64,000 nt of DNA, from the NCBI RefSeq assembly GCF_028609845.1, contig NZ_CP063191.1, forward strand, positions 620,001 to 684,000, given 5' to 3'. The position numbers and the translations under genes are program-made. The notes under the pieces are model-generated. The model searched no databases. It was not told the DNA's origin and worked only from the letters and a program-made list of their open reading frames with translations. The stretch comes from Corynebacterium heidelbergense. GTDB lineage: Bacteria; Actinomycetota; Actinomycetes; Mycobacteriales; Mycobacteriaceae. This document shows positions 20,545 to 36,976 of the stretch, in pieces. Position 1 is the first letter of the stretch, and every line of letters begins with the position of its first letter.

Positions 20545-20645
20545 CGGCTTAGCTCCAAAAGTGGGCCGGTAGTCTGCCGACACCCGTGTCACCCATCGGG
20601 GATGCCCGCCCAGCCTGCCCCGCGTTCACCAACCCCTGGCCCATA

Positions 20646-23600
20646 ATGGTGGGCATGGCTACATTCGATACGGCACTGGACCAGCTCCGCGAGAATCAAC
20701 CTCCGGGTAGGTACGGCATCGCCTTTGAGAAGTTGATGGTCAACTACTTCCGCAGCGACCCGGTTCTCAGTGCCGAGTACGCGGATGTATGCCGCTGGAT
20801 CGATTGGCCCTACAACGGCGGGAACCCGGACACGGGCATTGATCTCGTCGCCCGCCGCGCCGAGGACCTGCAGTGGGTCGCGATTCAATGCAAGTTCTAC
20901 AAGCGCACGACCAGCATCCAAAAGGCCCACCTGGACTCCTTCTTCGAAGCCTCCGGCCGCACCTTCACCACCGAGCACGGCACCGAATCCTTCGCCCAGC
21001 GCATCATCATCTCCACCACGGATAAGTGGAGCAAGAATGCCGAGGCAATGCTGGAGAATCAGGGCATCCCCACGAATCGGATCGGCACCGCCGCCATCGC
21101 GGATGCGCCCATTGATTGGGATCTGACCTTCCCCGGCTCGGATATCGAGATCAATCTGTCCCCGCGCCACACTTTCGAGCCCCGCCCGCACCAGGCCACC
21201 GCGATCGCCAAGACCATTGAGGGATTCAACACTCATGACCGCGGCAAGCTCATCATGGCCTGTGGCACGGGCAAAACGTTCACGGCTCTCCGCTTGGCCG
21301 AGCAGGTGGCCGAGCTCAACGGTAACCGTGCCCGAGTGCTCTTCCTTGTGCCGTCGATCTCTTTGCTCTCGCAGACGCTTAAGGAGTGGACTGCCCAGGC
21401 CCGCTTGGATCTGAAGTCCTACGCCGTGTGTTCCGATACGAAGGTCTCGAAGAAGGCCGAGGATATCGCCTCGTACGATCTGGAGGTCCCGGTCTCCACG
21501 AACGGTGCGGACGTTGCCGAGCGTTTCTCTCACGGCAAGCGCGCCGCTGGCCTGCAGGTGGTTTTTTCCACTTATCAGTCCCTCCCAGCCGTCCATGAGG
21601 CGCAGGCCGCTGGTCTGGATGATTTCGACCTGGTGATCTGCGATGAGGCCCACCGCACCACGGGCGTGACTCTGGCCGGCGAGGATGCCTCCAACTTCGT
21701 GCGTATCCACGACGCGGATTACATTCGTGCTGCTCGCCGCCTGTATATGACCGCGACCCCTCGTTTGTTCGACGACGCCACGAAGGGCAAAGCCGCAGAG
21801 CATTCTGCGGAACTCGCGTCCATGGATGATGAGGCTGTGTACGGGCCGGAATTCCACCGTCTGGGCTTCGGCGAAGCCGTGGAGAAGGGCCTGCTCACGG
21901 ACTACAAGGTGCTGGTCATGACCGTGGATGAGGAAGTGGCCGCCGAGGCCCTGTCCCGCGGCCCGCAGGAGGTCAACCTCTCGCTGGCTTCGGCGATGAT
22001 CGGTGCGTGGAATGGCCTGGCGAAGCGTTCCGGCAAGGAGCAGGGCACCAAGCACGGCTTCGATATCGATGCCGCCCCGATGAAGCGCACTGTGGTGTTT
22101 GCCAAGGACATCAAGACCTCAAAGCAGATCGTGGAGAGCTACCCCACGTTGGTTGCCACCCACCAGCAACTCCTGCGCGAGAAGGCCGCACTCAACGAGG
22201 TCTCCCTGCACAACGTGGACCTGGAGATCGCCGCCCGGCACGTCGATGGCGCGATGAACGCGATGGAGCGCAACTCGCGCCTGTCGTGGTTGGAGGCCGA
22301 CGTGCCGGAGAACCAGACCCGCGTGCTCTCGAACGCGCGATGCCTCTCGGAGGGCGTGGACGTTCCCGCCCTCGATGCGGTGGTGTTTTTCAACCCCCGC
22401 AATTCCATGGTGGATGTGGTCCAGTCCGTGGGGCGGGTGATGCGCAAGTCCGAGGGCAAGGATTATGGCTACATCATCCTGCCTGTGGCCGTGCCACCCG
22501 GAAAGTCCCCCTCGGAGGTGTTGAGCGATAATCGTCGCTTCAAGGTGGTCTGGCAGATTCTCAACGCGCTGCGCGCGCACGACGACCGCTTCAACGCGAA
22601 GGTGAATTCCATCAGCTTGAACGAGTCCGCGCCCGACGAGCTGCCCATTGACGTGGAGCATGTAGACAATCCGAACAAGTCGGACCGGCAGAAGTTGGAT
22701 GAGGCAGAACAATCTGGTGCGCGAACCGCGGCGCTGGATTCGGCCGACGAGGTGACTGCGCAGACGTTGGCGCTGTTCTCTCTGGAGCAGTGGCAGGAGG
22801 CCTTGTACACGAAGTTGGTGGACAAGGTGGGTACGCGCACCTACTGGGAGGATTGGGCTGATGACGTGGCTGATATCGCCGACGCCCAAACGGCCCGCAT
22901 CCGCAGCCTGCTTGAGGGCGCCGATGCTGCGCTGCGCAAGGAGTTCGAGGCGTTCGTGGAGGGCCTGCGCGGTAACCTCAATGACTCCATCTCGGAGGAC
23001 GAGGCGATTGGAATGCTTTCGCAGCATCTGATTACCGCGCCGGTGTTCAATGCGCTGTTCGCGGAGTACGACTTCGCGGCGCACAATCCGGTTTCAAGGG
23101 TGATGCAGCGAATGGTGGATGCGCTGGCGGACAAGCGCTTGGAGTCGGAGACGGAGGGGTTGGAGAAGTTCTACGAGTCCGTTCGCGTGCGTGCCTCGGA
23201 GGTCACGAGTGCTTCCGGTAAGCAGCAGGTGGTCAAGGAGCTGTACGAGCGCTTTTTCCGTAAGGCCTTTAAGAAGCAGGCGGAGGCGCTGGGCATTGTG
23301 TACACGCCGGTGGAGATTGTGGATTTCATTCTGCGCAGCGCCGATGACTTGTTGAAGAAGCACTTCGGGCGCGGGCTGACGGATGAGGGCGTGCATGTGC
23401 TGGATCCGTTTACGGGTACGGGCACGTTCATGGTGCGTTTGCTGCAGTCTGGGCTGATTGAGCCGGAGGATCTGGCGCGCAAATACGCCAAGGAGCTGCA
23501 TGCGACCGAGATCATGTTGCTTGCCTATTATGTCGGCGCGGTGAACATCGAGACGACGTATAACGCGCTCATGGCGGAGCGCGCACAGCGCAACGCCGAC

Positions 23601-25658
23601 TCTCTCTCGGGAAGTTCCGAACAGGACAGTGGGGCTCAGTATGTGCTGTTCGAGGGCATCGCGCTGGCCGATACGTTCCAGGTGTACGAGGAGGGCGACG
23701 CCCTCGACCTGGACGTGTTCGTCGAGAACAATGCGGCCATCGAGCGCCAGAAGCAGGCGCCCATCCACGTGATTGTGGGCAACCCGCCGTATTCCGTGGG
23801 CCAGACCAGCGCGAATGACAATAACGCCAATCTGAAATATCCGACGTTGGACCAGCGAATTGCTCAGACCTACGTGGCGAAATCGACTGGTGCGCGAAAA
23901 TCTCAGCTGTATGACTCGTATTTGAGAGCTTTCTGTTGGGCCACGGACCGCATTGGCAATCACGGCATTGTCGCCTTTGTGTCGAACGGCGGTTGGCTTG
24001 ACGGAAATACTGCCGACGGTGTCCGTCTGTCCTTTGCCGAGGACTTCAGCGACATTTACGTCTTTGACCTGCGCGGAAACGCGCGAACAGCCGGTGAATT
24101 GCGCCGCAAGGAAGCAGGCAACGTGTTCCGCGATGGAGGTCGGACCACGATCGCGGTAACGCTCTGCGTGAAAGATCCCAAGCGTTCTGGTTGCACGATT
24201 CACTACCGCGATATTGGCGATTATCTCAGTGCCGAGGAAAAGCTCGATATCGTTCAGCACGCTTCAATCGAGTCGCTGCCCTGGGAGGAAATTAAACCCA
24301 ATAAGTTCGGCGACTGGCTGAGTCAACGCTCGGAGTTGTTCGAGACCTGGCCGGTGTTGGGCGATAAGAAGGATACGCAGGTCAAGAAGTTCTCTGAAAA
24401 CTACTCCCTCGGGTTAGCCACAAATCGGGATGCATGGGCTTATAACTTCAGTTTGTCCAAACTCGAGCAAAACATAAGATGCGCAATCAAGTTCTATAAT
24501 TCTGAAACGCGTCGGCTTACGGGATTGGTCGGACAGGGCAAAAGTGAAGATGAAGCACGAAAAGAAATTACGTTCGACAAGACGAAGTTTTCGTGGGATC
24601 GTGTGAACAAGCGGAACGTCGTGCGTGGCCGTTATCTTGACCAACGCACTGATGCATACCGGATCGGCTTGTACAGGCCGTTTACCAAGAATCATGTCTA
24701 CTTCGACCAGGAACAGCAGCTCAACAACTGCACCTATCGAATGCCGCAAATGTTCCCAACGCCGGAACACGACAATATTGGTTTCGCTGTTGTCAATCCG
24801 GGCGAATCCACAGGATTGAGCGTCCTCGCTACTGATAAGATTCCCGACCTCCACTTAATTGCGTCCTCGCAGTTCTTCTCTCGGTGGACGTGGGAGCGTG
24901 TCGAGGTTTCTGACAGTGAGTTGGATTTGGCGTTGGGGCAGTCCTCGTCGGCAAGTATAAAGGGTAGGGAGGGCGAAATCCTCTCCGGGTACCGACGTGT
25001 GGACAATGTGACGGATGAGATTTTGGCGCAGTACCGCTCGGCCCTGGGGGACGTGACGAAGGACGACATTTTTCATTTCGCGTACGGCCAATTGCACGAC
25101 CCGGCTTACCGCGCGAAGTATGCAGCCGATCTGAAGAAGATGCTGCCGCATATCGCGACGCCGCAGTCGCGGGAGCCGTTCGACCAGGTGGCAGCGGCCG
25201 GCCAGGCGCTGATGGCTCTGCACGTCGGCTACGAGGACGTGGAGCCGTACCCACTTGATGTACAAATCAAGGAGGGGTTCTCCGAAGACGACCGCGAGAC
25301 CTGGCGTGTAGCTAAAATGAAGTGGGCCAAGCGAAAGGACTCGGAAACTGCAAAGACGGCCAATGACGTCACCAAAATCATCTACAACACAAAGGTGACG
25401 ATCTCCGGTATCCCAGCGGAGGCTGGAAATTACATACTCGGGTCGCGCTCCGCACTAGCGTGGGTGATCGACCGCTACCAGGTGAAGAAAGACAAGGCCT
25501 CAGGCATCGTCAACGACCCCAACGACTGGGCAGACGAGGTGGGAAACCCGCGCTACATCGTCGATCTCATCCGGAAGGTCACGCGCGTCGCTGTGGAAAC
25601 AGTGCAGATAGTAAAGCAGTTGGAAATCAGTCATTGGAACACACAGGACGTTCGGTAG
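20646..25658 (+). CDS. Type ISP-like single-chain restriction-modification enzyme
   Basis: A 1670-aa protein combining nuclease, translocase, methyltransferase and target recognition, as in LlaGI/LlaBIII. Residues 1-110 form an Mrr-type PD-(D/E)xK nuclease (GIDLVARR with D66, then QCK at 81-83). Residues 180-650 form an SF2 translocase: Walker A MACGTGKTF near 206, DEAH as ICDEAHRTTG near 331, YMTATPRLF, and motif VI QSVGRVMRKS. A helical coupler follows. The adenine-N6 methyltransferase shows VLDPFTGTGTF near 919 and VGNPPY near 1045. Residues 1150-1550 are probably the target-recognition domain. The start may be 20646 or 20655. It needs no partner subunits; the recognition sequence cannot be read from the gene. 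Confidence 0.92.
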   Translation: MVGMATFDTALDQLRENQPPGRYGIAFEKLMVNYFRSDPVLSAEYADVCRWIDWPYNGGNPDTGIDLVARRAEDLQWVAIQCKFYKRTTSIQKAHLDSFFEASGRTFTTEHGTESFAQRIIISTTDKWSKNAEAMLENQGIPTNRIGTAAIADAPIDWDLTFPGSDIEINLSPRHTFEPRPHQATAIAKTIEGFNTHDRGKLIMACGTGKTFTALRLAEQVAELNGNRARVLFLVPSISLLSQTLKEWTAQARLDLKSYAVCSDTKVSKKAEDIASYDLEVPVSTNGADVAERFSHGKRAAGLQVVFSTYQSLPAVHEAQAAGLDDFDLVICDEAHRTTGVTLAGEDASNFVRIHDADYIRAARRLYMTATPRLFDDATKGKAAEHSAELASMDDEAVYGPEFHRLGFGEAVEKGLLTDYKVLVMTVDEEVAAEALSRGPQEVNLSLASAMIGAWNGLAKRSGKEQGTKHGFDIDAAPMKRTVVFAKDIKTSKQIVESYPTLVATHQQLLREKAALNEVSLHNVDLEIAARHVDGAMNAMERNSRLSWLEADVPENQTRVLSNARCLSEGVDVPALDAVVFFNPRNSMVDVVQSVGRVMRKSEGKDYGYIILPVAVPPGKSPSEVLSDNRRFKVVWQILNALRAHDDRFNAKVNSISLNESAPDELPIDVEHVDNPNKSDRQKLDEAEQSGARTAALDSADEVTAQTLALFSLEQWQEALYTKLVDKVGTRTYWEDWADDVADIADAQTARIRSLLEGADAALRKEFEAFVEGLRGNLNDSISEDEAIGMLSQHLITAPVFNALFAEYDFAAHNPVSRVMQRMVDALADKRLESETEGLEKFYESVRVRASEVTSASGKQQVVKELYERFFRKAFKKQAEALGIVYTPVEIVDFILRSADDLLKKHFGRGLTDEGVHVLDPFTGTGTFMVRLLQSGLIEPEDLARKYAKELHATEIMLLAYYVGAVNIETTYNALMAERAQRNADSLSGSSEQDSGAQYVLFEGIALADTFQVYEEGDALDLDVFVENNAAIERQKQAPIHVIVGNPPYSVGQTSANDNNANLKYPTLDQRIAQTYVAKSTGARKSQLYDSYLRAFCWATDRIGNHGIVAFVSNGGWLDGNTADGVRLSFAEDFSDIYVFDLRGNARTAGELRRKEAGNVFRDGGRTTIAVTLCVKDPKRSGCTIHYRDIGDYLSAEEKLDIVQHASIESLPWEEIKPNKFGDWLSQRSELFETWPVLGDKKDTQVKKFSENYSLGLATNRDAWAYNFSLSKLEQNIRCAIKFYNSETRRLTGLVGQGKSEDEARKEITFDKTKFSWDRVNKRNVVRGRYLDQRTDAYRIGLYRPFTKNHVYFDQEQQLNNCTYRMPQMFPTPEHDNIGFAVVNPGESTGLSVLATDKIPDLHLIASSQFFSRWTWERVEVSDSELDLALGQSSSASIKGREGEILSGYRRVDNVTDEILAQYRSALGDVTKDDIFHFAYGQLHDPAYRAKYAADLKKMLPHIATPQSREPFDQVAAAGQALMALHVGYEDVEPYPLDVQIKEGFSEDDRETWRVAKMKWAKRKDSETAKTANDVTKIIYNTKVTISGIPAEAGNYILGSRSALAWVIDRYQVKKDKASGIVNDPNDWADEVGNPRYIVDLIRKVTRVAVETVQIVKQLEISHWNTQDVR

Positions 25659-26761
25659 AAATATTTGCAAACAAGATAGCTATGACAACCAGCCTAGTTG
25701 CGTCATAGGGAAGTCAACCCCAGGTCTCGTTTCGGCAAAAAGGTCGACAGATAGCAGTCAGATCGACAAACTTAATCCACGTTGAAATCTCTAACGAAAA
25801 ATGCCCTAGATTTAACATAAGGCGATGTGTACAAAGCGGCGTTGCTCCTTCATTCCAACCGGAAAGTGTTAATTAAACAAATTGACGCTCTTACCTCTGA
25901 TAAAGTTCTTGTTAGGCTAAGTAAGGCTGATCTATCGTTATTCAAATACAACTACTTCAGGTTAATTAACTTCATGGAGACTAGATATACACCTAAAATC
26001 GAGACATGGCCTCTGTCGTGCTACTTTTGACCCCAAGCGTTCTATTGTCGTCCGAATGATAATGTAAACCCGCTTCAGTCAGGGATATTAATTAATAACA
26101 ATAAGGTCCACCTGTATTCAACTAATTGGTTGAATGTACCGATGTTCACTGAATAATAGCTCTGAATCGACGGTAAGTATAAAGGATTCTCGCTGACGAA
26201 CGAGAGCAATTTGTAGCCGAGCAAGCGCCGGGAATACGAGGAGCGGAAGAAGCTTCCGAGATTGAGGCTCTGGTTGAAATGGAAAGCTCGGCAGTAATCA
26301 ACAAACCAATGGATTAATAGGGTCACGTACGGGGTCCCCACAAGCCAAGTTTCTACGCCTATCTTTCTATGATGAAATCAGCTCGGCCGCCAAAAGAGTC
26401 TTAGTAACATTGTACGGTCGGCTATGATTTGGATTCGAAATCGGTCTTACTCGGTCGATCTTGACGGCAAAATCGGTACTCATAGTGATGGAAAGCAGTC
26501 GGGTCTTCTTTATGCGGCCGCGCGAGGTTGAGGTCGATCTATTGTGGAACTACCCATACGGTAGCCAGCAGCTACAGGTAGTCTGGGGATGCAGGAAGTC
26601 CGAGTCGACCCAAAGGGGGGGCTTCGCGTCGGGGGAAACCAACGCTGCCTGACGAAGAGCAGCAGTGGCTTCCTCTTTGCGGAAAGTCGACACCTCTAGG
26701 GCATCTGTGTGTTATATTAGAGCCAGTCGTTGTCGCGTCAAGATGGAAATGGATACCAGAG
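25659..26761. other. AT-rich stretch without a convincing gene
   Basis: About 1.1 kb with visibly lower GC than either flank. Short frames exist (for example 25827-26030, starting GTG, 67 codons, Lys/Leu-rich) but none has a ribosome-binding site, family motif or good length. One short tail of a decayed reading frame is listed separately. The right end must hold the promoter of the ParA-like gene; TATATT at about 26713 is a possible -10 element. The base composition suggests imported DNA and gene debris at an old recombination junction. Confidence 0.6.
26183..26317 (+). pseudogene. Possible C-terminal remnant of a lost gene
   Basis: A 44-codon open stretch encodes DEREQFVAEQAPGIRGAEEA followed by a Glu-rich tail ending INKPMD and tandem stop codons. 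The composition looks like real protein, yet the frame is closed by TAA just upstream and has no start. I do not recognise the family. It may instead be chance. Confidence 0.3.
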
Positions 26762-27802
26762 ATGAAAATAATAGCATTTTTTAATAACAAGGGTGGCGTT
26801 AGCAAGACCACGACCTGCCTGAGTGTCGGATGGAAATTGGCACAAAGTGGAAAAAGGGTTCTCCTTGTCGACCTTGATCCGCAGTGCAATCTGACTGGAT
26901 CAATCCTCGATCCGGAAGACGAAGCTTTGCTTGCTGAAGACTATCAGGGGTTCGCAGCTTCTAACATTCACGATGCGCTGCGACCCGCAATGAAGGGTAT
27001 AGGTAAAAAGATTACTGCACCTGACTGCGTGGAAGTGACTCAACGAGAAAATCTGAAACTTCTGCCGGGTAATGTAAAGATGGCCGAGGTAGAGACGCAG
27101 CTTGCTACCGCGATGAACATGGGGAACGTGATGCCTGCTATGCAGAATGTGCCCGGGAGTTTCGGTGAACTCTATAACCTACTGGGCGAGCATAATGACT
27201 TGGACTTTATTCTGCTCGACATGAGCCCTAGTCTAGGTTCCATAAATCAGGTGAATTTGCTGCTAGCCGATTACTTTATCGTTCCGATGATGCCCGATAT
27301 TTTTTCCGTCATGGCAACAGAGAGCCTCGCGAGAATTCTTCCGCAGTGGGCGAGCTGGTCTAAAAAGGTGGAAATATTGGAGCTTTTCAAGGATGACGAC
27401 ATAGTGTATGAGTTCTCTCCCTCAATTCCTAAATTCTTGGGGACCATCGTACAGAAATATAATGTCAAAAATGGCAGAGCGACCCGCGGCTTTCAAATTT
27501 ATATGGATAATCTTCAAACAGCTGTTGACGAAACCTTGGTCCCGGCCCTTCAGGATAGTGGTTTTATGTTGAAGGAGGATATCTACAATAGGTATAATTT
27601 GAAGTACACGCTAGCTGAGATTAAGGATTTCAATTCGCTAATAGCGGCGGCCCAAAACGTCGGGCGACCTGTATTTTCCTTAACTGAGGAAGACCTCTAC
27701 ACGCAGGGAAGTGTTGCTGAGGCCCAAATCCAGAATATTAAAGCATTTGATTCAGTATTCACCGAGCTTGCGGTACGTATTGTTGAAATGACTGATGCAT
27801 AA
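26762..27802 (+). CDS. ParA/MinD-like ATPase (first gene of putative two-gene module)
   Basis: A 346-aa P-loop ATPase of the ParA class. Residues 10-17 are the deviant Walker A KGGVSKTT with the signature lysine K10; VDLDPQCNLTG (36-46) is the second ATPase motif and FILLDMSPSLG (about 149-159) is Walker B. The C-terminal 150 residues (from about KKVEILELFKDDD) go beyond a minimal ParA fold and contain no DNA-binding motif I can name. No parB or centromere-like repeat array is adjacent, so chromosome or plasmid partition is unlikely. The stop codon shares one base with the next gene (TAATG), which indicates coupled translation. Base composition is AT-richer than the core genome. Confidence 0.82.
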   Translation: MKIIAFFNNKGGVSKTTTCLSVGWKLAQSGKRVLLVDLDPQCNLTGSILDPEDEALLAEDYQGFAASNIHDALRPAMKGIGKKITAPDCVEVTQRENLKLLPGNVKMAEVETQLATAMNMGNVMPAMQNVPGSFGELYNLLGEHNDLDFILLDMSPSLGSINQVNLLLADYFIVPMMPDIFSVMATESLARILPQWASWSKKVEILELFKDDDIVYEFSPSIPKFLGTIVQKYNVKNGRATRGFQIYMDNLQTAVDETLVPALQDSGFMLKEDIYNRYNLKYTLAEIKDFNSLIAAAQNVGRPVFSLTEEDLYTQGSVAEAQIQNIKAFDSVFTELAVRIVEMTDA

Positions 27803-28521
27803 TGGGTTATAGATTTGAGTTCCGTAGCCAGGTGGAGATGCAGCGAGCTTTGTTTGATGAGAATCTTCAGCGGTTCGACAAACTATTAATTTGGGTTACA
27901 GCCAATCGGCGTGGCACCTCGGGTCACAGCTCTCCGGGTTTGGATTTGAACGGTGAAGGTTCGGATCCTTCTGTGGGAAACGCCGTTGTTGCTCGAGAAG
28001 TCGATTCAATCTTGCCGATTTACTTGGTTGGGGCTCTCGATTCCTTGCTTAAAGGTCTAAAATATGTAGCTACAGTGGGATATCTATCGGAACAGTATGA
28101 ATCTCCCCGACCCTTCAGGGTGACGATTCCAGCTAAGGTTGCAAGGGTCTTGGTTTCGGATGATGATAGTGAGATCACCTTCAATTATATGGAGCCAATT
28201 AATCAAAGTCTGTTGCACTATTTTAGTCGTGCTAATTTTCAGGGCTGGTCCGATTATAGCGGTTTCGCGAAAGATATTGGCCTACGGTCACCATCTGAGT
28301 TTGTCAAGAACAAAGATGAGGTGCGTCAGCAATACGATGTGCTTTGTGAACTGCGACATGATGCCAGTCATAGACTGGGCATGATCGTACGGAGTGCGAT
28401 TACAGATGAATGGTTTATAGATCTAGTCGACTCCGAGTATGCTCGCAATTGTGTTGAGTCTATGGGGGAGGCAGTATGCGCCGAAATGCTAGGCTGCATG
28501 AAAGGCTCACTGGCAGATTAG
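27802..28521 (+). CDS. Putative HEPN-type protein coupled to the ParA-like ATPase
   Basis: A 239-aa protein without membrane segments, not firmly assigned to a family. Near the C-terminus, ELRHDASHRLG carries R185-x4-H190, the R-x4-6-H signature of HEPN ribonucleases, inside a predicted helix. The N-terminal half contains FDENLQRFDKLLIW and AREVDSILPIYLVGALDSLL, which look like paired helices of an all-alpha domain, resembling the MAE_28990/MAE_18760-type HEPN layout. If correct, it would be the toxic RNase effector and the overlapping ParA-like gene its regulator or sensor. An uncharacterised helical protein with a chance R-x4-H remains possible. Confidence 0.55.
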   Translation: MGYRFEFRSQVEMQRALFDENLQRFDKLLIWVTANRRGTSGHSSPGLDLNGEGSDPSVGNAVVAREVDSILPIYLVGALDSLLKGLKYVATVGYLSEQYESPRPFRVTIPAKVARVLVSDDDSEITFNYMEPINQSLLHYFSRANFQGWSDYSGFAKDIGLRSPSEFVKNKDEVRQQYDVLCELRHDASHRLGMIVRSAITDEWFIDLVDSEYARNCVESMGEAVCAEMLGCMKGSLAD

Positions 28522-28792
28522 GTTTGTTTTTTCTAGTGATTCACCCTTTTGAGGAGGGGCCTTAGAGAGCGCTACGGTTGGTTTACACGGTCGGTATAGG
28601 TTCAGTAGTAGATAGCTGGCTTCTGGGTCGGGGCAGAGGTCGTTCTACTTGAGATCTCGAACGAATTTTGTGTAAATAGGCGTAGAAGATCGTGGAACAC
28701 GAGTGTGGTATTTGAGCGATTGTGGTCTGCTAGAGGTGTGGCGGCGAGAAAATGCGCCAGATCTAGGACCCAGTGCTGAGGGCGGCTAAACG

Positions 28793-29474
28793 TCATTGGG
28801 GCGGACGGGAATTAGTGACAGTACAGTAGTCGAGTCTGGTGTCCACTTCGTTTGGGATGATGTTCTTGATGAGAATACCGAGGTCGCGGGAGATCGCCGA
28901 GTGCAGGCTCCGCCAGATTCCTCGCTGGTGTGAGGGTTGTGCGAAGAAGGCTGCTGGCCTGGTGGTAGTCGAGCTGTCGGGTCGGGGGAGTAGAGCTTGC
29001 TTGAGTGCGTGATTCTGAGAGCGGATGACTTGCCGTAAGGTGTTCATGCAGCCTGTTGAGAGTGTAGCTGGGTGCCCCGGTCGCCTTGTGGTGCTGTTTT
29101 TCGATAGAGACGACGGCGTCGAGAGGCGCCGGTTGTCTGTGGCCTAGATTCCCGACCTTGTTCCGCAATGTGTGTCCAGCAATTCGTAACCGTTGGATTT
29201 CGGAGCGTTCCGCCTCGCCGAGGTCGCCCTCGGGGATGGGGCGGAAGCGAAGGGCAATGATGTATGCCCATGGCTCGTGATGAGAAGAGCCGTGAACGTG
29301 GGTTGCGAAGCGCGTGACAACGTCTACGGACTGGCCCACATAAAGTTCGCCGTTTGCGAACTCAAGCACATAGATGCCGCGGCGGTCGCGCCGGATGAGA
29401 GGAGCAATGGATTGCCCAGGGGAGAGAGGCCAATGGTGATAGACGCTGAAGGCATCGGGGTTCTGGCCGCTCAT
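28793..29474 (-). pseudogene. Decayed GIY-YIG nuclease gene, paralogue of the one at 37585-38799
   Basis: The N-terminal part (29474 leftward) is intact and aligns without gaps to the first part of the downstream paralogue: 27 residues before the domain, then RRGIYVLEFANGELYVGQSV, RFATHVHGSSHHEPWA and TLRNKVGNLGHRQPAPLDAV. After the equivalent of residue 140 the homologous frame changes: the continuation FFAQPSHQRGIW...IIPNEVDT, matching FFRKPAHRKGVW...VIPNAVET, is found in another frame at 28793-29047. It ends at a stop where the paralogue continues for about 170 residues. So the gene has a frameshift and a 3' truncation. The frame running to 28812 could still yield a 220-aa truncated nuclease. 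Confidence 0.8.
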
Positions 29475-29587
29475 GTGGATCTTTGGTTTCGGGTATAAAG
29501 CTGGTCTTATTGTACCGGGTGCTGGTGTGCTCCCATGGCCCGGTGCAGCGCCGCAGGTGGAGTAGTCATAGCGGGGAGCAAGACAGG

Positions 29588-30498
29588 CTACTGCTCTTCG
29601 CCAAGGCGGTGAAGGAATTTTTCTTCGGTAAGCACCTCGATGGGAGACCCAGCCTCGCGTAGCTTTGTAGCCTTAGTGAGTTTGCGGAAGGCGTATGATC
29701 CCTCGGACCATGAGCTCGTATTTGGGATCTAAACCACCAAGATCGTCGTCTTTTTGGTGAGGTTCTTTTCCACGGCACCCCCCAAAGCCTCCACGAGCTG
29801 CTGAACTTCGGCGCGCTGACCCCGCTGTAGTGTTCCGGTAATCGTTACTCTCTCGCCCTTGAGAACCGTGGAGTTCCCAACTCGCGCAAGCCGATCCTGA
29901 ACTACGGCCTGGTTGACTTCAGCTACCGATTTCCGTCGGCGGCGGGTACCACTGGGAGGGCATAGCTCAATCAGATGGTCAAACCCGTAATCTTCCTGCA
30001 TACGTGCGAAAAACCGGCCGCACGCTTCAGCATCTTCGGTGGCTTCATGGTGGTTGAAAGCCTCGCCCGGAAAGTAATAGTAGAGGACCGCATCGAGATT
30101 CTTTCGGTCCAACTCTATAGCGAGAATCCGGGGAGCTATTCGCAGCGTGCACAGCTGAGAGATGCTTAATGCTGGGTAACCGTAGGTGACGTCGAGGTCG
30201 GACAGGACATAACCATCGAAGGCCATGTTGTGGGCCACGAGCGGGTGATCCCCGACGTAGTTGGCCACGGACTGCCGAATGCCAGACCAATCTGGTGCAT
30301 CGGCAACATCCTCGGCCGTGAAGCCGTGAACCGATACGCTGACGGGGTTGAAGAAGCTAACGTCGGCATGGTGTGGAGCAAAGTGGGGAAACGATCCTTA
30401 ATGTTTCCCTGGTTGTCGAAGGCCACTAAGCCTAAGGAACAGTCGGTACGGCGTTGCTCGTTGGCGGTTTCAAGGTTGATAGCGACAAAATCTTGCAT
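29588..30498 (-). pseudogene. Decayed DEDD (DnaQ-like) 3'-5' exonuclease with BRCT domain
   Basis: The original gene would start at 30498 (MQDFVAINLETAN) and end at 29588. Motif I should be D-x-E but reads INLE, so the catalytic Asp is Asn8. At about 30365 the homologous frame shifts by one base: TLLHT is followed in the next frame by ADVSFFNPVSVSVHGFTAED. Motif II HNMAFDG and the motif III region HHEATEDAEACGRFF follow, then the BRCT domain ERVTITGTLQRGQRAEV. An in-frame TAG at 29729-29731 interrupts it after TTILVV, and BRCT sequence continues beyond (KATKLREAGSPIEVLTEEKF). Three independent lesions make this a pseudogene. It is divergent from the GmrSD-like gene. Confidence 0.82.
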
Positions 30499-30661
30499 GG
30501 CTACTCTTTCGGTAAGTGAGGGGCCATGCCAACTCTCCTGAAACCACAGCGTCAGGCGGGTAAACAGAAGTTGACGCTGGTACGGATGATCGAATCTGGG
30601 GAGGTGTCCCCAGAAACCGTCTAGCACGCCGGTAGTGTGAAGGGCACAGTCACATGCGTGA

Positions 30662-33132
30662 TCACATGCTAGGCGTTGGAGCACGAACCTCAACTCCAAG
30701 GAGCTAAAAAGTTGGAAAGGTAACGTTCGGGATATCGTTCTTCTCTTCGACGGGAACGATAAGCAACTAATTATTCCCGTCTACCAGCGCAATTACGACT
30801 GGGGTGAAACGCAGTCTGCTCGGCTCTTCGACGACTTGATTGGAACAATTCGACATGACCGGGTCAAACATTTTTTCGGTGCTGTGGTAGGTAAGCCTGA
30901 AACGTCCTTCGATTGGATTGTGATTGACGGTCAGCAACGTCTGACCACGACCAGCCTGTTGATGCTGGATCTCGCGGACTCAAGCGATGCTGGAGTCATT
31001 GAGTCGAAAGATAGAGAACCGAGCAGCAAGATTCGTCGCAACTACCTCAAGGGTGCTGGCTACACGGCAGATTCTGAGACGGAGCTAAAGTTGAGGCCTG
31101 TGAAACACGATTTGGACGCCTACCGGAGACTGCCTCAGCGAGATGAGCCTAAAGCGGAATCGACGATCACGCGCAACTACCGGTACTTACGCGAGCGCAT
31201 AGCTGAGAGGGCACTCACTGGCGATGAATTATGGACCGCGATCCAGCGGTTGGAAGTCATGGCTCTGGACCTAGAACCGCACGATGAGCCTCAGCGCATC
31301 TTCGAATCGTTGAACTCCACAGGTAAGGAGCTCAAGGAATCTGACACGATTCGGAACCTCGTGCTCATGGGTTTGGATAATCCTACGCAGGAACGCCTAT
31401 ACGAGCGGTACTGGAATGAGATCGAAAGGAACGTCGGCTTCGAAACGGACACCTTCATCCGTATCTACCTAATTTGGCAAACTCGAAGGACTCCACGATT
31501 CGATGCCGACAACGAGGCCTTCAAGGTCTACCTTCGGGGGCTCGATGAACTCGTGGAGCAAACCTTGGCGCTCATGCGCAGCTATTCGGAGCACTACCGC
31601 GATATCAACAAATCGCGTACGGGGGTGCCCACCGCGGACCGGAGGCTCCGCCGATTTAACCTCCTCAACCGCGAAGTAGCTTTGCCGGCTCTCATGCCGA
31701 TCGTGGGGGACTTCAAGGAGGCAGTGCTCTCCTCCGAGGAGTTCACGAAGATTATCATTCTGGTGGACAGCTACCTGTTCCGACGGGCAGTGGTGGGCGC
31801 CCAATCAAACGCCCTCAACAAAAGTTTCGCCACGCTTTATAGCGATGCTCGCAGGCTGGTGACCGATAACAGCTCCCTAGAAGACGCAATCACCTACCTG
31901 CTGCGTCGCAAAGATGGTACATCGGGAGAATTTTCGAACGACGAGCAGTTCAGTGAGCGGTTCTTGAGTCGAAACTTCTACAATTTCCGTCTCGAAAATA
32001 GGCGTTACTTGTTTGAGTGCTTGGAAAACCTCGACTCGAAGGACATCGTGGATGTCGCCTCCGGTATTGACGCGGGCGACATCTCTATCGAACACATCAT
32101 GCCGCAGACCCGCACTAAGGAATGGCGTGAAGAGCTTGGCCCGATTTGCGAGGAAATCCACAAGACGTGGATGCATCGGATCGGCAACCTAACCGTTACC
32201 GGCTACAACTCTGAGTACAGCAACTACACCTTCGCTCGCAAGAAAGAGTTGCCAGGAGGATTCGACTCCTCCCCGTACCGTCTTAACTCGGATGTTCGCG
32301 ACGCTTCAAGGTGGGACGAGGCCACAATGAAACGGCGATCTCAGAGGATGCTCCAGGATGCAATTAACTACTGGCCGATGATCGAGACGGACTTCGAGCC
32401 GGTGAGGGAGCCACAGCCCTCTTTGCCAATGGGTGAAGACAACAACTTCAGTAAACGGGCTATTGTCTCCTATGAATTTGACGGAGCCTCTCACACCGTA
32501 GGGAGTTTCCGGGATCTCATTCGCGGCGTGATTCGAACATTGTCCGGAGAATACTACGAAGCTATTCGCACTTATGCCGCACAAGGCGCCCCTGGTCTGT
32601 CTGCAGGCAGTGAGCCGGGATACAGCGGCCGAGAGGAGATTGTTCCGGGATTATGGGCTGTCACCAGTTCGTCAACCGCTTCGAAAATGCCCTTGCTCCG
32701 AGGACTTTTCCGCGCACTCGGGTTCGACCCCAATGAACTTGTGATGTATGTGCGCCCGCAGACTGGAGCCGAACCAGAAGAATATACAGGGGGAAAAAGT
32801 TCGCGGAATTTACGAAGTGTATTTCTCGATTCGATGAGTTGGTCGATGTACCTAGTTCCGATCCCATGCTCCCAGAAATAAAAGCAGAGTTCTGCACCGT
32901 GTTCACAAAGTTCGCTGTTCCGGAGTGGCATGGGATTGTAACCTCCGTGCCGACTAAACCTGAGCTGGATAGGGACGTGTCCAGCTACAACGCGGAAAAG
33001 TCCTTGGCAGTTCTGACAGCAATCCAGCAGATTGACACGATGATGCCTGGGACGTTTAAGTCCAAGGTGTGCGATGGCTCAGTAGGTCAGTTGTTGGAGC
33101 GTCTTGCTCATGTGGACACAGTCGAGACCTAG
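30662..33132 (+). pseudogene. GmrSD-like (DUF262 + DUF1524) type IV restriction gene, damaged
   Basis: Encodes a fused GmrS-GmrD type nuclease, the family that cuts modified (glucosylated hydroxymethyl-cytosine) phage DNA. The DUF262 N-terminus QLIIPVYQRNYDW is in frame from about 30760, yet no ATG, GTG or TTG occurs between the upstream TGA and the TTG at 30836, so the normal start is missing. The NTPase motif VIDGQQRLTTTSLL and the HNH-type DUF1524 segment SIEHIMPQT...HRIGNLTVTGYNSEYS are intact. The frame closes at 32881, but the adjacent -1 frame continues KFAEFTKCISRFDEL... to 33132. Start loss plus frameshift suggest inactivation; a non-canonical start and programmed frameshift are alternatives. 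Confidence 0.75.
32791..32797 (+). other. G-GGA-AAA heptamer at the GmrSD frame change
   Basis: The in-frame heptamer fits the X-XXY-YYZ rule for -1 slippage and lies in a GGGGGAAAAA run. A -1 shift here joins EEYTGGK to KFAEFTKC with no gap. The same run is also a hot spot for indel mutation or sequencing error. Confidence 0.5.
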
Positions 33133-33708
33133 GTTGGCTACCGCCTGAACTCCAGACCCAGGAGCAGACGTGTGGCGCGTATAGCGCAACGGGTAATCCG
33201 CAAGAAACCACTTCTTCCAAGCCAAACGCTCGCCAGGTTCACAGTTCGTCTGGGCGCTTCTGGGTAAACCCGTCAGCTCAGGAGGCGAACCCGAGGAACT
33301 GTCCTGGCAGGACAACCCGCTCTGCCCGGATCGCGGTTTGTCTAGGCAGCAGCATCAGCGACCACCAGCGAGGAATTGAACAAAGCGACTGTCATCGACT
33401 GTGCTCACCTGCTCAGATGATTTCGCAACGTTCCTCGCGAAGGTGACTGTGTGGTTGTATTTAACAGGACAACTGGGCACCTCTTTACGTAGGAGCTGTG
33501 GATGGTTCCACAGGGTAACTATCCCCGGTGAACCAGTTATTGCCCCAGTTGAGGCGGCCGAACATTGCCGTGCCAGCGTACCCGTACAGTGGGGCCCGAA
33601 CATGCTTTGATGCAGTAGTTCGAAAGTGATTTTCAGAGCTCAGCCAAGCGTTCAACCACTGTAACCTTGGTAAGGAGCAACAACGCAACCGCGAGACGCG
33701 AAGCTGTG
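33133..33708. other. Gene-free stretch between GmrSD-like gene and mcrB
   Basis: About 575 bp. Frames here are short, without ribosome-binding sites or motifs. It presumably carries the promoter for the mcrB-mcrC-GNAT operon; TAAGGAG at 33671 is the only good Shine-Dalgarno-like sequence, but no start codon follows at usual spacing. I see no repeat or tRNA-like structure. Confidence 0.5.
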
Positions 33709-35625
33709 ATGTCAAGAGAGGAAGATCTCAGCCCAATGGAAACTACACCAGCCAGCGACGAACAGGGCCTAAGCTGGGTGCCCTTTTTTGCCGAGATGGC
33801 AGACACACTCAAGCATTATCAAGGCCGTCGCGCAGAGCTGCTCATCAAACTCCGTGACGCAGCTGAGGCATCCAGTCGACCCTCGTTGTTCAACTTCCTA
33901 TGGACCTACGGCAAGGGCAGTGCGCGCTACGAGGCAGATGATGTAGACCCATTCACCATCTTCGCCGTGATCAATCGGCAAATCTCCTTGAGCAGTAAAA
34001 TTGCCGTATGCACTGGGTTCAAGCAAGCCCTCGGACTGAGTTCACCTGTACCTACAGGGTTCGATGGGGTGCCCCAGGTCAATAACATGCGCTCCAGGTT
34101 CGAATCGCGGGATGGAGACGCAGGCAACACCACCTTTTACGACAACATCTGGGCGCTCTTCACCGCTGGGCTGGAACTGGCCACGCCAAACACCCCAACT
34201 GTTCCCGCCCAAACCGAGAACCCCGCTGGCAACCGCAATGAGCGGGCATCCGGTGAATACGGCAGTGGCGGCGTCGAGCTGGAACTAGACACCGAAGGCG
34301 AAGCCTACGAAAGGTTTGTTACAGCCTTCGACACTGCAACTGCCGGGCGGGCGCGCGGGTCATACACCATGGCGCTGTTTTGGATCAGAGCCCAGCACTA
34401 CCTGCCACTCGATTCGCGCACCATCGATTACCTCCGAGGGCTAACCAGTACCGAATCACCGGATGAAGAGCCGATTGCTGCGCGCATGCCGTGGTTGAAG
34501 TTGCCTCGATCCATCAAAGGCAGTGAGTACATCGACGTATGCAACAACGTGCGAGCCTGGATTGCCGAAGACGCATCGCTACCAGCAACGTTCCCAGAGC
34601 TATCGGATTCGGCGTATCGAGCCCCCGCGGCCAGCGACGGGGATGTGGAACCAGAGGAAGCCCCATCGTCACCAACGGCGCAGCCGGCAGATGACACCGG
34701 TGGCACAGAGGCGGTAGAGGCCGCCATCAGCTACACCGTCGCGGACATCGTGGCCGCAGGTTGCTTCATTCCCAAAGATGGCCTTGAAGCCATGCTCACG
34801 CGTTGGCGGGAAAAGAAGAACCTTATCCTCCAAGGCCCACCCGGTACAGGCAAGACATGGCTGGCGAGGAAGCTCGCCTACGCTCTCATCGGCACGGACT
34901 CGGACGAGACCATCACTGCAGTGCAGTTCCACCCGTCAACCTCCTACGAGGATTTCGTCCAGGGGCTCCGGCCCGATGCCGAACGCGGCCTCGTGGTACA
35001 AGATGGTCCTTTTATGGACGCCATCTACGCCGCAGCGGGCGAAGAGGACGAAAAGACCAAACACGTGGTCCTAATCGAGGAGATCAACCGCGGCAACCCG
35101 GCGCAGATCTTCGGCGAGATGCTAACTCTCCTCGAGGCTGACAAGCGGGATAGCGGTAGTGCACTGAAGCTGCTGTACGCCTCCGGTGATGATGATGCGA
35201 TCTACGTCCCGCCCAACCTGTACGTCATCGGCACGATGAACCAGGCCGACCGGTCACTGGCCATGGTCGACATGGCACTGCGGCGCCGATTCGGATTCGT
35301 CACGTTAAAGCCGAGCCTGGGCAAGGAATGGTTACAGTACTGCACTAGCAAGTGCGGCCGCGACGAACCGGTTCTGACACAGATCGCGAAGCAGATCACG
35401 GCCGTCAATACGTTGATCGAGGATGACGTGAACTTGGGCTCGGCCTATTGCATCGGGCATAGCTTCGTGACTCCTGGTCGGCGCAACAACCCACTATCCG
35501 CAGACGAAACCAAAGCATGGTTTGGTCGGGTGGTGGACACAGACCTGAGGCCGCTATTGGAAGAGTACTGGCACGACGACCCCGACCGTTTAGGGGAGGC
35601 CCTAGCCTTGCTGCGCGAGGCCTAG
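33709..35625 (+). CDS. mcrB: McrB-like AAA+ GTPase of a type IV (McrBC) restriction system
   Basis: Motor subunit of a modification-dependent restriction system: it binds modified DNA through its N-terminal domain and translocates using GTP. The protein is 638 aa from the ATG at 33709; a TTG at 33667 and an ATG at 33736 are alternatives. Residues 1-340 are a variable recognition region with an acidic Pro/Ser-rich linker near 300-335. The AAA+ domain has LQGPPGTGKTWLARKLA near 375, QFHPSTSYEDFVQGLRP, VVLIEEINRGNPAQIFGE near 454, and GTMNQADRSLAMVDMALRRRF near 508, which contains the McrB-type MNxxD GTP signature. mcrC follows 34 bp downstream. Confidence 0.92.
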   Translation: MSREEDLSPMETTPASDEQGLSWVPFFAEMADTLKHYQGRRAELLIKLRDAAEASSRPSLFNFLWTYGKGSARYEADDVDPFTIFAVINRQISLSSKIAVCTGFKQALGLSSPVPTGFDGVPQVNNMRSRFESRDGDAGNTTFYDNIWALFTAGLELATPNTPTVPAQTENPAGNRNERASGEYGSGGVELELDTEGEAYERFVTAFDTATAGRARGSYTMALFWIRAQHYLPLDSRTIDYLRGLTSTESPDEEPIAARMPWLKLPRSIKGSEYIDVCNNVRAWIAEDASLPATFPELSDSAYRAPAASDGDVEPEEAPSSPTAQPADDTGGTEAVEAAISYTVADIVAAGCFIPKDGLEAMLTRWREKKNLILQGPPGTGKTWLARKLAYALIGTDSDETITAVQFHPSTSYEDFVQGLRPDAERGLVVQDGPFMDAIYAAAGEEDEKTKHVVLIEEINRGNPAQIFGEMLTLLEADKRDSGSALKLLYASGDDDAIYVPPNLYVIGTMNQADRSLAMVDMALRRRFGFVTLKPSLGKEWLQYCTSKCGRDEPVLTQIAKQITAVNTLIEDDVNLGSAYCIGHSFVTPGRRNNPLSADETKAWFGRVVDTDLRPLLEEYWHDDPDRLGEALALLREA

Positions 35626-35659
35626 AAGCGGGGAAGGTTCGAGGTGGAGGTTCTGCGCT

Positions 35660-36976
35660 GTGAATGAGGATGAAACGTTCGGCGTCAGCAGGTACGTCCC
35701 GGTGCGGAGTCTATGGCTGCTGCAACTCTACGCCTCCGAGTTGTATCGCTGCGGGTTAGCAACTGATGCGGACGTCGAAGATCCAGATGTAGACATACCG
35801 TTGCTTGTGGCAGGCCTGCTGTGTGACGCTGTGGAGCAACGGTTGCAGCGCGAACTGACCATCGGGTTTACACGTACCCAGCGGGATATGAGTCGTATCC
35901 GCGGGAAAATCAATGTCATTCCAACTGTCCGCGGGCAGCTGATGGAGAAAGGCCTGGTCAACTGCACGTTCAACGACCTGACCGTCAACAGCCCAGTTAA
36001 CAGGTATCTTTTGCGAGCACTCGACCGCGCAGTGTCTATGTTGCAGACAACGAAAAGAGCCGGACTTCGGAGCCGAACGTTGACACCGCAACAAGGGGCT
36101 GCAGCCGAAGCGCTATCAGCGCGCGTTCGGCGGCTGTATCGAACACTGGCTAATGCTGGTGTTCCTTTTCACGCTAATGCCCCGGAACCCAAGGGGCGCC
36201 TGGCTCGCCAAGACCGCAAACCGGTGGTGATAGCCACGCTGTTGCTTCAACTACTCATTCCTAGCCCAGGGACAGGGCGGGCGGCGATTAGGCGGTCAGA
36301 CGTAAGCGAGGAAGCTCTACGCCGGTTGTTCGAAAGGGCCCTTCTCGGGATCTATCGGCACCACCTAGCGCCAGAAGGCTGGGTGGTCAGGGGATCGAAG
36401 ACCATTAAGTGGGCAGTGGATGAGGTTGCCGAAGGGGACAAGCTGGGCAAGGACGCCAAAACCGGTGGTGGTGGAGTCACTGGGGCCGAAACTCTGAGCT
36501 CACGAAGCCCCGTGTTGCCACTGATGAGGACTGATATCACTCTCCGCAGTCCGGGAGGGCGGTTGATAATCGTGGACGCCAAGTTTGCGAACATGGCAGC
36601 ACGTGGCCCTTTCAGCAGTAAGCCAACGTTGCCCTCCGCTTACCTGTATCAGCTTCACGCTTACGTGACAATGGCGCAGCTGGAGGACAGAGCAGTGATG
36701 AGGGCCGAGCCGTGCGCTAAAAGCAAACGGAGGAGTAGCGAGACGACGAGTGAGCTCTCGGCACCGCAGCTCATTGCGGCACAGATGCCGGGCCCTAAGG
36801 TGGCAGGAGCGATGGTATTCGCCGCACTGGGTACGCAAAGCAGCACCGACTTTCCCGAGCATCAGGAATGGGTGATGAATGGGCATCCAATTACTTTCGC
36901 GGCGTTAGATCTGACTCGTTCCGCCAAGTCTATACGTGAGGCTGTTCTCGGAGCCGTTGGCCCTGTGAGTGGTTGA
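35660..36976 (+). CDS. mcrC: McrC-like nuclease subunit of the type IV restriction system
   Basis: Nuclease partner of McrB, 438 aa, starting with GTG after a good GTGGAGG site. The N-terminal segment PVRSLWLLQLYASELYR is the conserved McrC opening. The PD-(D/E)xK active site is visible as MRTDITLRS (Asp near 290) and IIVDAKF (Asp-Ala-Lys near 304). Its stop overlaps the following TTG start (TTGA), so a GNAT protein appears to be translated with it. Both mcr genes look intact, which contrasts with the damaged genes just upstream. The modified base recognised cannot be deduced. Confidence 0.91.
   Translation: MNEDETFGVSRYVPVRSLWLLQLYASELYRCGLATDADVEDPDVDIPLLVAGLLCDAVEQRLQRELTIGFTRTQRDMSRIRGKINVIPTVRGQLMEKGLVNCTFNDLTVNSPVNRYLLRALDRAVSMLQTTKRAGLRSRTLTPQQGAAAEALSARVRRLYRTLANAGVPFHANAPEPKGRLARQDRKPVVIATLLLQLLIPSPGTGRAAIRRSDVSEEALRRLFERALLGIYRHHLAPEGWVVRGSKTIKWAVDEVAEGDKLGKDAKTGGGGVTGAETLSSRSPVLPLMRTDITLRSPGGRLIIVDAKFANMAARGPFSSKPTLPSAYLYQLHAYVTMAQLEDRAVMRAEPCAKSKRRSSETTSELSAPQLIAAQMPGPKVAGAMVFAALGTQSSTDFPEHQEWVMNGHPITFAALDLTRSAKSIREAVLGAVGPVSG

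Follow-up and report, generated by a model that had tools for sequence, protein, structure and literature searches.

The two overlapping genes at positions 26,762 to 28,521 of the window (i.e. the whole 64,000-nucleotide stretch of DNA analysed here, taken from a 2.33 Mb genome) very probably encode a ParA-type ATPase and a HEPN-type effector. The best overall explanation is a probably acquired ParA-HEPN module in which the ParA protein restrains a HEPN RNase; we consider this explanation probable, and it is likewise probable that the pair is a toxin with its regulator, even though these assessments overlap with those of the rival explanations, which share parts of the same reading. The ParA-HEPN kind of pair is already known as a prediction. 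Judging from the sequences, what is new in the branch represented by the window is that the HEPN protein appears to belong to another group, that R-H replaces R-N in its motif, and that it has no match in the profile libraries used. The genes and their surroundings are as follows.

20586-25658, type IIG/I enzyme (PADLOC)
25659..28811, no strand, A+T-rich stretch holding the ParA-HEPN pair (GC 0.46-0.51 vs 0.62 in the window)
26762..27802, + strand, ParA-type (deviant Walker A) ATPase gene, 346 aa; no ParB partner found; predicted sensor/antitoxin
27800..27804, + strand, TAATG, where the ParA stop codon overlaps the HEPN start codon (sequence)
27802..28521, + strand, divergent HEPN-homologous gene, 239 aa; predicted RNase toxin; no direct family match
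28354..28371, + strand, R-x4-H motif of HEPN RNases, R185-H186-D-A-S-H190 (sequence and alignments)
30836-32881, + strand, GmrSD-type restriction gene (profile match)
33667-36976, McrB- and McrC-like genes (NCBIfam, below cut-offs)

Both open reading frames of the pair are found in the sequence and in the list of reading frames where the original prediction had placed them. The end of the ATPase gene and the start of the HEPN gene have one base in common (TAATG, 27800-27804), an overlap through which the two genes are likely to be translationally coupled. A similar spacing is seen in other pairs, as the HEPN start lies at -17 to +15 nt relative to ParA in 15 of 16 distinct partners, and at -38 in the remaining one, for which the first possible start was taken. 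The pair had also been described as richer in A+T than its surroundings, and this holds for the overall composition (45.8% GC in the ParA gene and 46.9% in the HEPN gene, vs 62.2% in the window) as well as for the third codon position (0.50 and 0.45, respectively, vs 0.62-0.76 in four nearby restriction-type genes). The A+T-rich stretch with the pair was probably acquired.

The first protein is of the ParA class. It matches Pfam AAA_31 (2.9e-34) and CbiA (3e-13), the three segments KGGVSKTT, VDLDPQ and LLDMSP are all present, and the residues K10, K15, D37, D39, D153, S155 and P156 do not vary across a 10-row ATPase alignment. The best NCBIfam scores belong to plasmid partition models, far below their cut-offs. 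In PADLOC-DB 2.0.0 the ATPase aligns with PDC-M28B models over only 41 and 52 residues, and no system model of this database matches the greater part of either protein of the pair.

The known role of ParA ATPases is to transport DNA and cellular components; they bind DNA and dimerise with ATP. The window protein shares the deviant Walker A motif with the ParA of Type I ParABS systems, but no adjoining ParB, parS or centromere repeats were found. The sole ParB found in the genome is located at C1:2307354, about 1.66 Mb from the pair, and when used as a query it returned no relative in the fetched loci or in the window at E<=1e-3, a search in which very different ParBs would be missed. With the parS consensus that we took to apply, no parS-like site was detected in the window, and the region 25659-29500 contains just two-copy short repeats and no centromere array. 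The earlier remark that the pair lacks parB and a centromere array is thus borne out, no regular partnering with parB was seen, and a partition system was rejected on these grounds.

Direct family annotation of the second protein gave no result: it matches no Pfam family at E<=10, no PADLOC model at E<=1 and no NCBIfam model at E<=0.1, and in a search of 5.8 billion proteins in which shared 5-residue words were required it returned itself alone. Its relatives were therefore gathered as neighbours of related ParAs. The R-x4-H motif noted originally is present, as ELRHDASHR supplies R185 and H190, and the conservation of these two residues, which had been named as a check, was found in the window protein and in 11 ParA-linked relatives. 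In these 12 partners chosen by neighbourhood D80, Q147, R185 and H190 are the sole invariant columns, and R185 and H190 are also invariant in a 46-row alignment. The motif appears to be more than chance because the relatives were gathered via ParA and not via the motif itself. Among 16 distinct partner sequences R[NH]xxxH occurs in every one (5 with RH and 11 with RN), and RN was found in all 120 that were listed of 471 database relatives.

Eight of the 12 other partners match the Pfam family HEPN_RiboL-PSP (PF18735), with values from 6.8e-14 to 2.4e-4 and five of the 12 above the cut-off; the matching partners belong to phages of Pseudomonas, to Burkholderia and to actinobacteria at a greater distance. 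The window protein, with no match at E<=10, stays below the curated 28.4-bit cut-off, and PF18735 was not detected in the window's own genome at E<=1. The five Corynebacterium/Gordonia partners (window included) have no family match, yet R-H-x3-H-R is present in all five. When these five near partners were compared with 15 PF18735-type partners as profiles (hhalign), the probability was 97.5% (E 6.9e-12, 198 columns) with R and H in register, while the control with the second profile reversed gave a probability of 0.3%. In a leave-one-out comparison the window protein scored 48.2 bits against the profile of the rest plus the 15, vs 3.2 bits for the best of 300 shuffles, and all five near partners scored between 31 and 95 bits (best shuffle 5.1). 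With a profile made from the PF18735-type proteins only, the scores decreased from 29.5 bits in the Gordonia partner to 14.4 in G114, 4.7 in G076, 0.7 in G013 and 0.6 in the window protein. The homology of the window protein to HEPN rests on the intermediates, because the score it reaches alone is inside the shuffle range of this control (best 4.2 bits; 1000 shuffles made, 613 scored). The HEPN-like nature of the second protein thus stands as homology through its relatives, whereas a direct family match was not obtained.

The HEPN partner diverges faster than the ATPase, since the window and G013 share 63% identity in the ATPase and 22-25% in the HEPN partner. A sequence search of the PDB gave no solved HEPN structure below E 0.1; two ApeA chains that cover the motif region were found above this limit (E 0.18 and 0.86) and are not counted. 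We regard the second gene as one that very probably codes for a strongly diverged HEPN protein, related through its relatives to the RiboL-PSP-HEPN group, and the protein is predicted to act as an RNase toxin. The HEPN protein has outrun the profile libraries used here and the ATPase is still recognisable, so tracking the constant partner can find effectors that domain searches miss.

The ATPase searches were carried out at E<=1e-40 for 201 relatives and at E<=1e-50 for 394 of the class, 242 of the genus, 13 of one genus and 401 of the family, these sets being overlapping; combined, they gave 11 distinct genomes. A HEPN-type gene directly follows the ATPase gene in 10 of the 11. This includes G947, whose ATPase gene contains one stop yet is still followed by the HEPN gene, and the exception is G837, in which the ATPase gene is broken and no partner was found. 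Of the 242 genomes of the genus, 4 contain the ATPase, and the HEPN partner profile has all its hits in the same 4 of them, at adjacent positions. The ATPase also adjoins the HEPN gene in all 13 plasmid records that match the Burkholderia glumae HEPN at E<=1e-5 and in both phage records that match the HEPN of phage WX-TY. In short, wherever HEPN was found, ParA is beside it. The ATPase side is looser: among the records with the ATPase, 13 of 25 from plasmids and 2 of 10 from phages gave a HEPN, counts in which more diverged HEPNs could be missed. We opened 6 of these 25 plasmid and 4 of these 10 phage records and found HEPN in four, a SIR2-like protein instead in one (L021) and, in the remaining five, no reading frame of 100 aa or more in the downstream stretch searched. 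In a Pseudomonas phage Pf1 prophage (L013, 3519-4043) the HEPN ORF, itself unannotated in the record, follows an annotated Soj-like regulatory protein.

It is useful to compare the pair with systems already described. The original prediction treated it as a candidate undescribed module, which holds only in part. A ParA/Soj + HEPN dyad with a HEPN of the MAE_18760 family was described in 2013 as a predicted antitoxin and RNase toxin (Anantharaman et al. 2013, PMC3710099), and the plasmid records of Burkholderia glumae contain ParA next to an annotated 'HEPN domain-containing protein'. The window pair fits this dyad in that a ParA-type gene adjoins a HEPN gene with R-x4-6-H, but the HEPN of the dyad is of the MAE_18760 family while that of the window is related to RiboL-PSP (PF18735) (PMC3710099). 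No other HEPN Pfam model was over its cut-off in the window protein or in 10 partners (E<=10). The same 11 proteins gave no match to a MAE family at E<=10 in Pfam, which presumably holds a model for the MAE HEPN families. The pairs in the B. glumae plasmids, Pf1 and WX-TY have the same gene order, an overlap of 1-8 nt, R-x4-H and a homologous ParA (38-41% identity). Their HEPNs are PF18735 proteins with R-N-x3-H, whereas the window protein has no PF18735 score and carries R-H-x3-H-R.

The neutralisation of a HEPN RNase toxin by a partner gene is reported as established for HEPN/MNT (HepT/MntA), which, like the window pair, consists of two genes, a HEPN RNase and a nucleotide-using partner (PMC7641770). 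The partner is a nucleotidyltransferase there, in contrast to the AAA_31/CbiA ParA-type ATPase of the window. Adenylylation is not expected from ParA. A review table lists PF18735 for the defence systems PD-T4-2, PD-T4-5, PD-T7-3 and ApeA (PMC10952713), and in these, as tabulated, a HEPN effector of a related family takes part in anti-phage defence; unlike them, the window protein matches no PADLOC model (E<=1). The nearest published idea that we found is an antitoxin network with a hub AAA ATPase, placed with GajA, PtuA and AriA, which includes a HEPN node; the words ParA and Soj are absent from the main text of this paper (PMC10440598).

A possible parallel is the Salmonella prophage Gifsy-1, where STM14_3218-3220 in the immunity region are given as a ParA-like ATPase and two unknown genes (PMC9879122). 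These genes are reported there to be needed for the activation of RtcR, which according to earlier work is activated by tRNA fragments with cyclic-phosphate ends; the authors note that their ATPase insertions could have polar effects and that complementation in trans failed (PMC9879122). In the literature searched, a sample mostly outside the subscription journals and therefore weak in this respect, we found no description of one ParA subfamily with at least five kinds of effector and none in which ParA, SIR2 and HEPN appear together.

A broader picture emerges from the relatives of the ATPase in viruses. A scan of viral contigs with the ATPase alignment gave 127 relatives, the best 80 of which were kept. 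In 42 of the best 80 of 127, an ORF of at least 150 aa has its start within -60 to +30 nt of the end of the ATPase gene; the remaining 38 are without such an ORF, or the contig ends. Classified by similarity, with near-identical loci counted, the 42 ORFs comprise 20 SIR2-like, 13 RelA/SpoT, 4 HEPN (one of them identical to that of Pf1), 4 cyclase-like and 1 PglZ protein. The family names are those of representatives (PF13289 in L021 and L089, PF04607 in L061 and L077, and PADLOC PglZ with 1.9e-281 in L073).

Some of these arrangements may be noted separately. ParA is followed by a SIR2-like gene in L021 (3998-4861) and in 20 viral loci within L022-L101, with an overlap of 4 or 8 nt in 14 of the 21; ParA-SIR2 is a probable module and its SIR2-like partners are probably NAD-consuming. 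A RelA/SpoT-type protein of about 220-315 aa follows ParA in L061, L063, L065, L066, L068, L076, L077, L080, L087, L094, L097, L099 and L100. The cyclase-like proteins (L047, L048, L049 and L053) show FIDILGF, FSDSI and RGGI or close variants in three of the four, a motif group that we take to be that of class III nucleotide cyclases; the three members scanned gave no convincing Pfam match.

An ATPase tree was built by a quick search with SH-aLRT support only; it contains 92 sequences from 105 loci, as the short reads L083 and L103 and three repeat loci were omitted and each set of identical sequences is represented once. The ATPases paired with RelA/SpoT and those paired with cyclase-like proteins each fall on one side of a branch with support 100. 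If the uncalled rows are treated as 'other', SIR2 needs 3 changes and HEPN 4; if they are omitted, 4 changes are enough for the five effector types, which is the minimum. The effectors thus appear to differ between ParA lineages and to be exchanged rarely, because so few changes suffice for five types. The window ATPase belongs to a 5-row, HEPN-paired Corynebacterium/Gordonia clade (support 99) inside a 36-row clade (support 99) with 16 HEPN-paired rows and 20 without a called HEPN. Because of these 20 of 36 rows, ParA cannot be said to be always a HEPN partner. Seventeen of the 20 form one subclade (support 98) that includes the P22-like phage ST160. In this Salmonella phage (L012, 2495-3568) the homologous ATPase sits within the immunity region at one gene's distance from the repressor, and no HEPN was found. 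After residue 200 the ATPases of 13 representatives have their length and a few columns in common; identity to the window in this part is 29-50% for other HEPN-paired ATPases and 14-22% for those with SIR2, RelA/SpoT, cyclase-like or PglZ partners, the latter figures being weak.

The ATPase may be a shared switch, because related ATPases have different, likewise toxic-looking partners at this position, and a modular ParA switch is suggested by the homologous viral ParAs that have SIR2-like, RelA/SpoT, cyclase-like or PglZ proteins directly downstream. That this subfamily of about 340 aa is a general switch for infection or damage, with a different toxic effector in the next gene of each lineage, is a tentative proposal that falls somewhat short of an even chance; under this reading, and just as tentatively, the window pair would be one strongly diverged HEPN branch. 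If true, control of varied toxic enzymes would make this ParA subfamily an ATPase switch, linked to DNA, for bacterial immunity. A testable role would then be available for many genes that have an unnamed neighbour and are annotated as 'ParA family protein' or 'AAA family ATPase'.

How could the pair work? The ATPase may control the HEPN protein rather than move DNA, as suggested by the missing ParB, by the pairing, and by the different toxic-looking enzymes that homologous ParAs have in this slot. We infer all further steps. The two overlapping genes of the probably acquired module would be translated together, and an ATP-bound ParA dimer, perhaps on the nucleoid, would bind and restrain the HEPN protein. 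Infection or damage would disturb the DNA-bound or ATP-bound state of ParA and free the HEPN RNase, which would cut RNA and halt growth so that the phage could not complete its cycle. That phage defence is the main role of the pair is possible, though we would put it slightly below the balance of probability.

Other explanations need to be weighed against restraint of the HEPN protein by ParA. Activation instead of restraint is nearly as likely on present evidence. In this reading, which taken by itself we consider less likely than not, the RNase would be harmless alone and would be switched on by an ATPase that recognises invading DNA or a phage protein and assembles on it. An ATPase family with varied effectors suits sensor-effector defence as well as toxin-antitoxin function, and DNA binding and ATP-dependent dimerisation, generally known from ParA ATPases, agree with it too. 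Against it stand the gene layout, since two overlapping genes with the regulator in front are the commoner arrangement in toxin-antitoxin pairs (PMC10440598), and the prediction of ParA as the antitoxin in the 2013 analysis (PMC3710099), neither point amounting to a test. A selfish addiction module with no defence role, in which post-segregational killing would maintain the acquired DNA or what was once a mobile element in the population, is unlikely but agrees with the A+T-rich, probably acquired DNA, with the scattered occurrence in the genus (4 of 242 genomes), with the copies on plasmids and filamentous phages and with the transposase or integrase genes near two relatives. Defence remains compatible with all this, however, and the pair adjoins three restriction-type systems here.

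Very improbable, as we see it, is a DNA-partition or positioning module in which ParA would transport or position DNA or some cargo, with the second protein serving as an unusual adaptor instead of ParB. The full set of ParA motifs, the homologues on plasmids and temperate phages and the plasmid partition models among the best NCBIfam scores (though far below cut-offs) would agree with such a function. The chromosomal site among restriction genes, the failure to find ParB, centromere repeats or parS, the invariant R and H of the HEPN protein, and the SIR2, RelA/SpoT and other enzymes that related ParAs carry in the same slot argue against it. Restraint of the HEPN protein by ParA stays the preferred reading.

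The location among restriction systems, on which the original prediction relied in part, was confirmed for the window with its IIG/I, GmrSD and McrB/C-like genes, but not around the sampled relatives. In five of the eight regions of relatives none of 10 sampled ORFs near the pair matched PADLOC at E<=1e-10, a result that argues against defence islands as the general location; an enrichment of defence genes around the relatives was accordingly not seen in this sample. The pairs of relatives are accompanied by IS110 and Mutator transposases at G013 and by an integrase at G238, and RNase E and a helicase are found near the pairs of two other relatives.

A few observations concern the neighbouring genes of the window. 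The GmrSD gene (30836-32881) is listed with a TTG start and the GmrSD_N profile is matched from position 40; its front may be missing or start elsewhere, because the match begins only at this profile position. Between the pair and this gene there are two ORFs on the minus strand. The ORF at 28812-29474 codes for 220 aa with a GIY-YIG-like start, as judged by eye, and has no Pfam match at E<=1e-4. The ORF at 29729-30699 bears a BRCT domain and, again by eye, an exonuclease-like front part; two overlapping frames suggest that this gene is broken.
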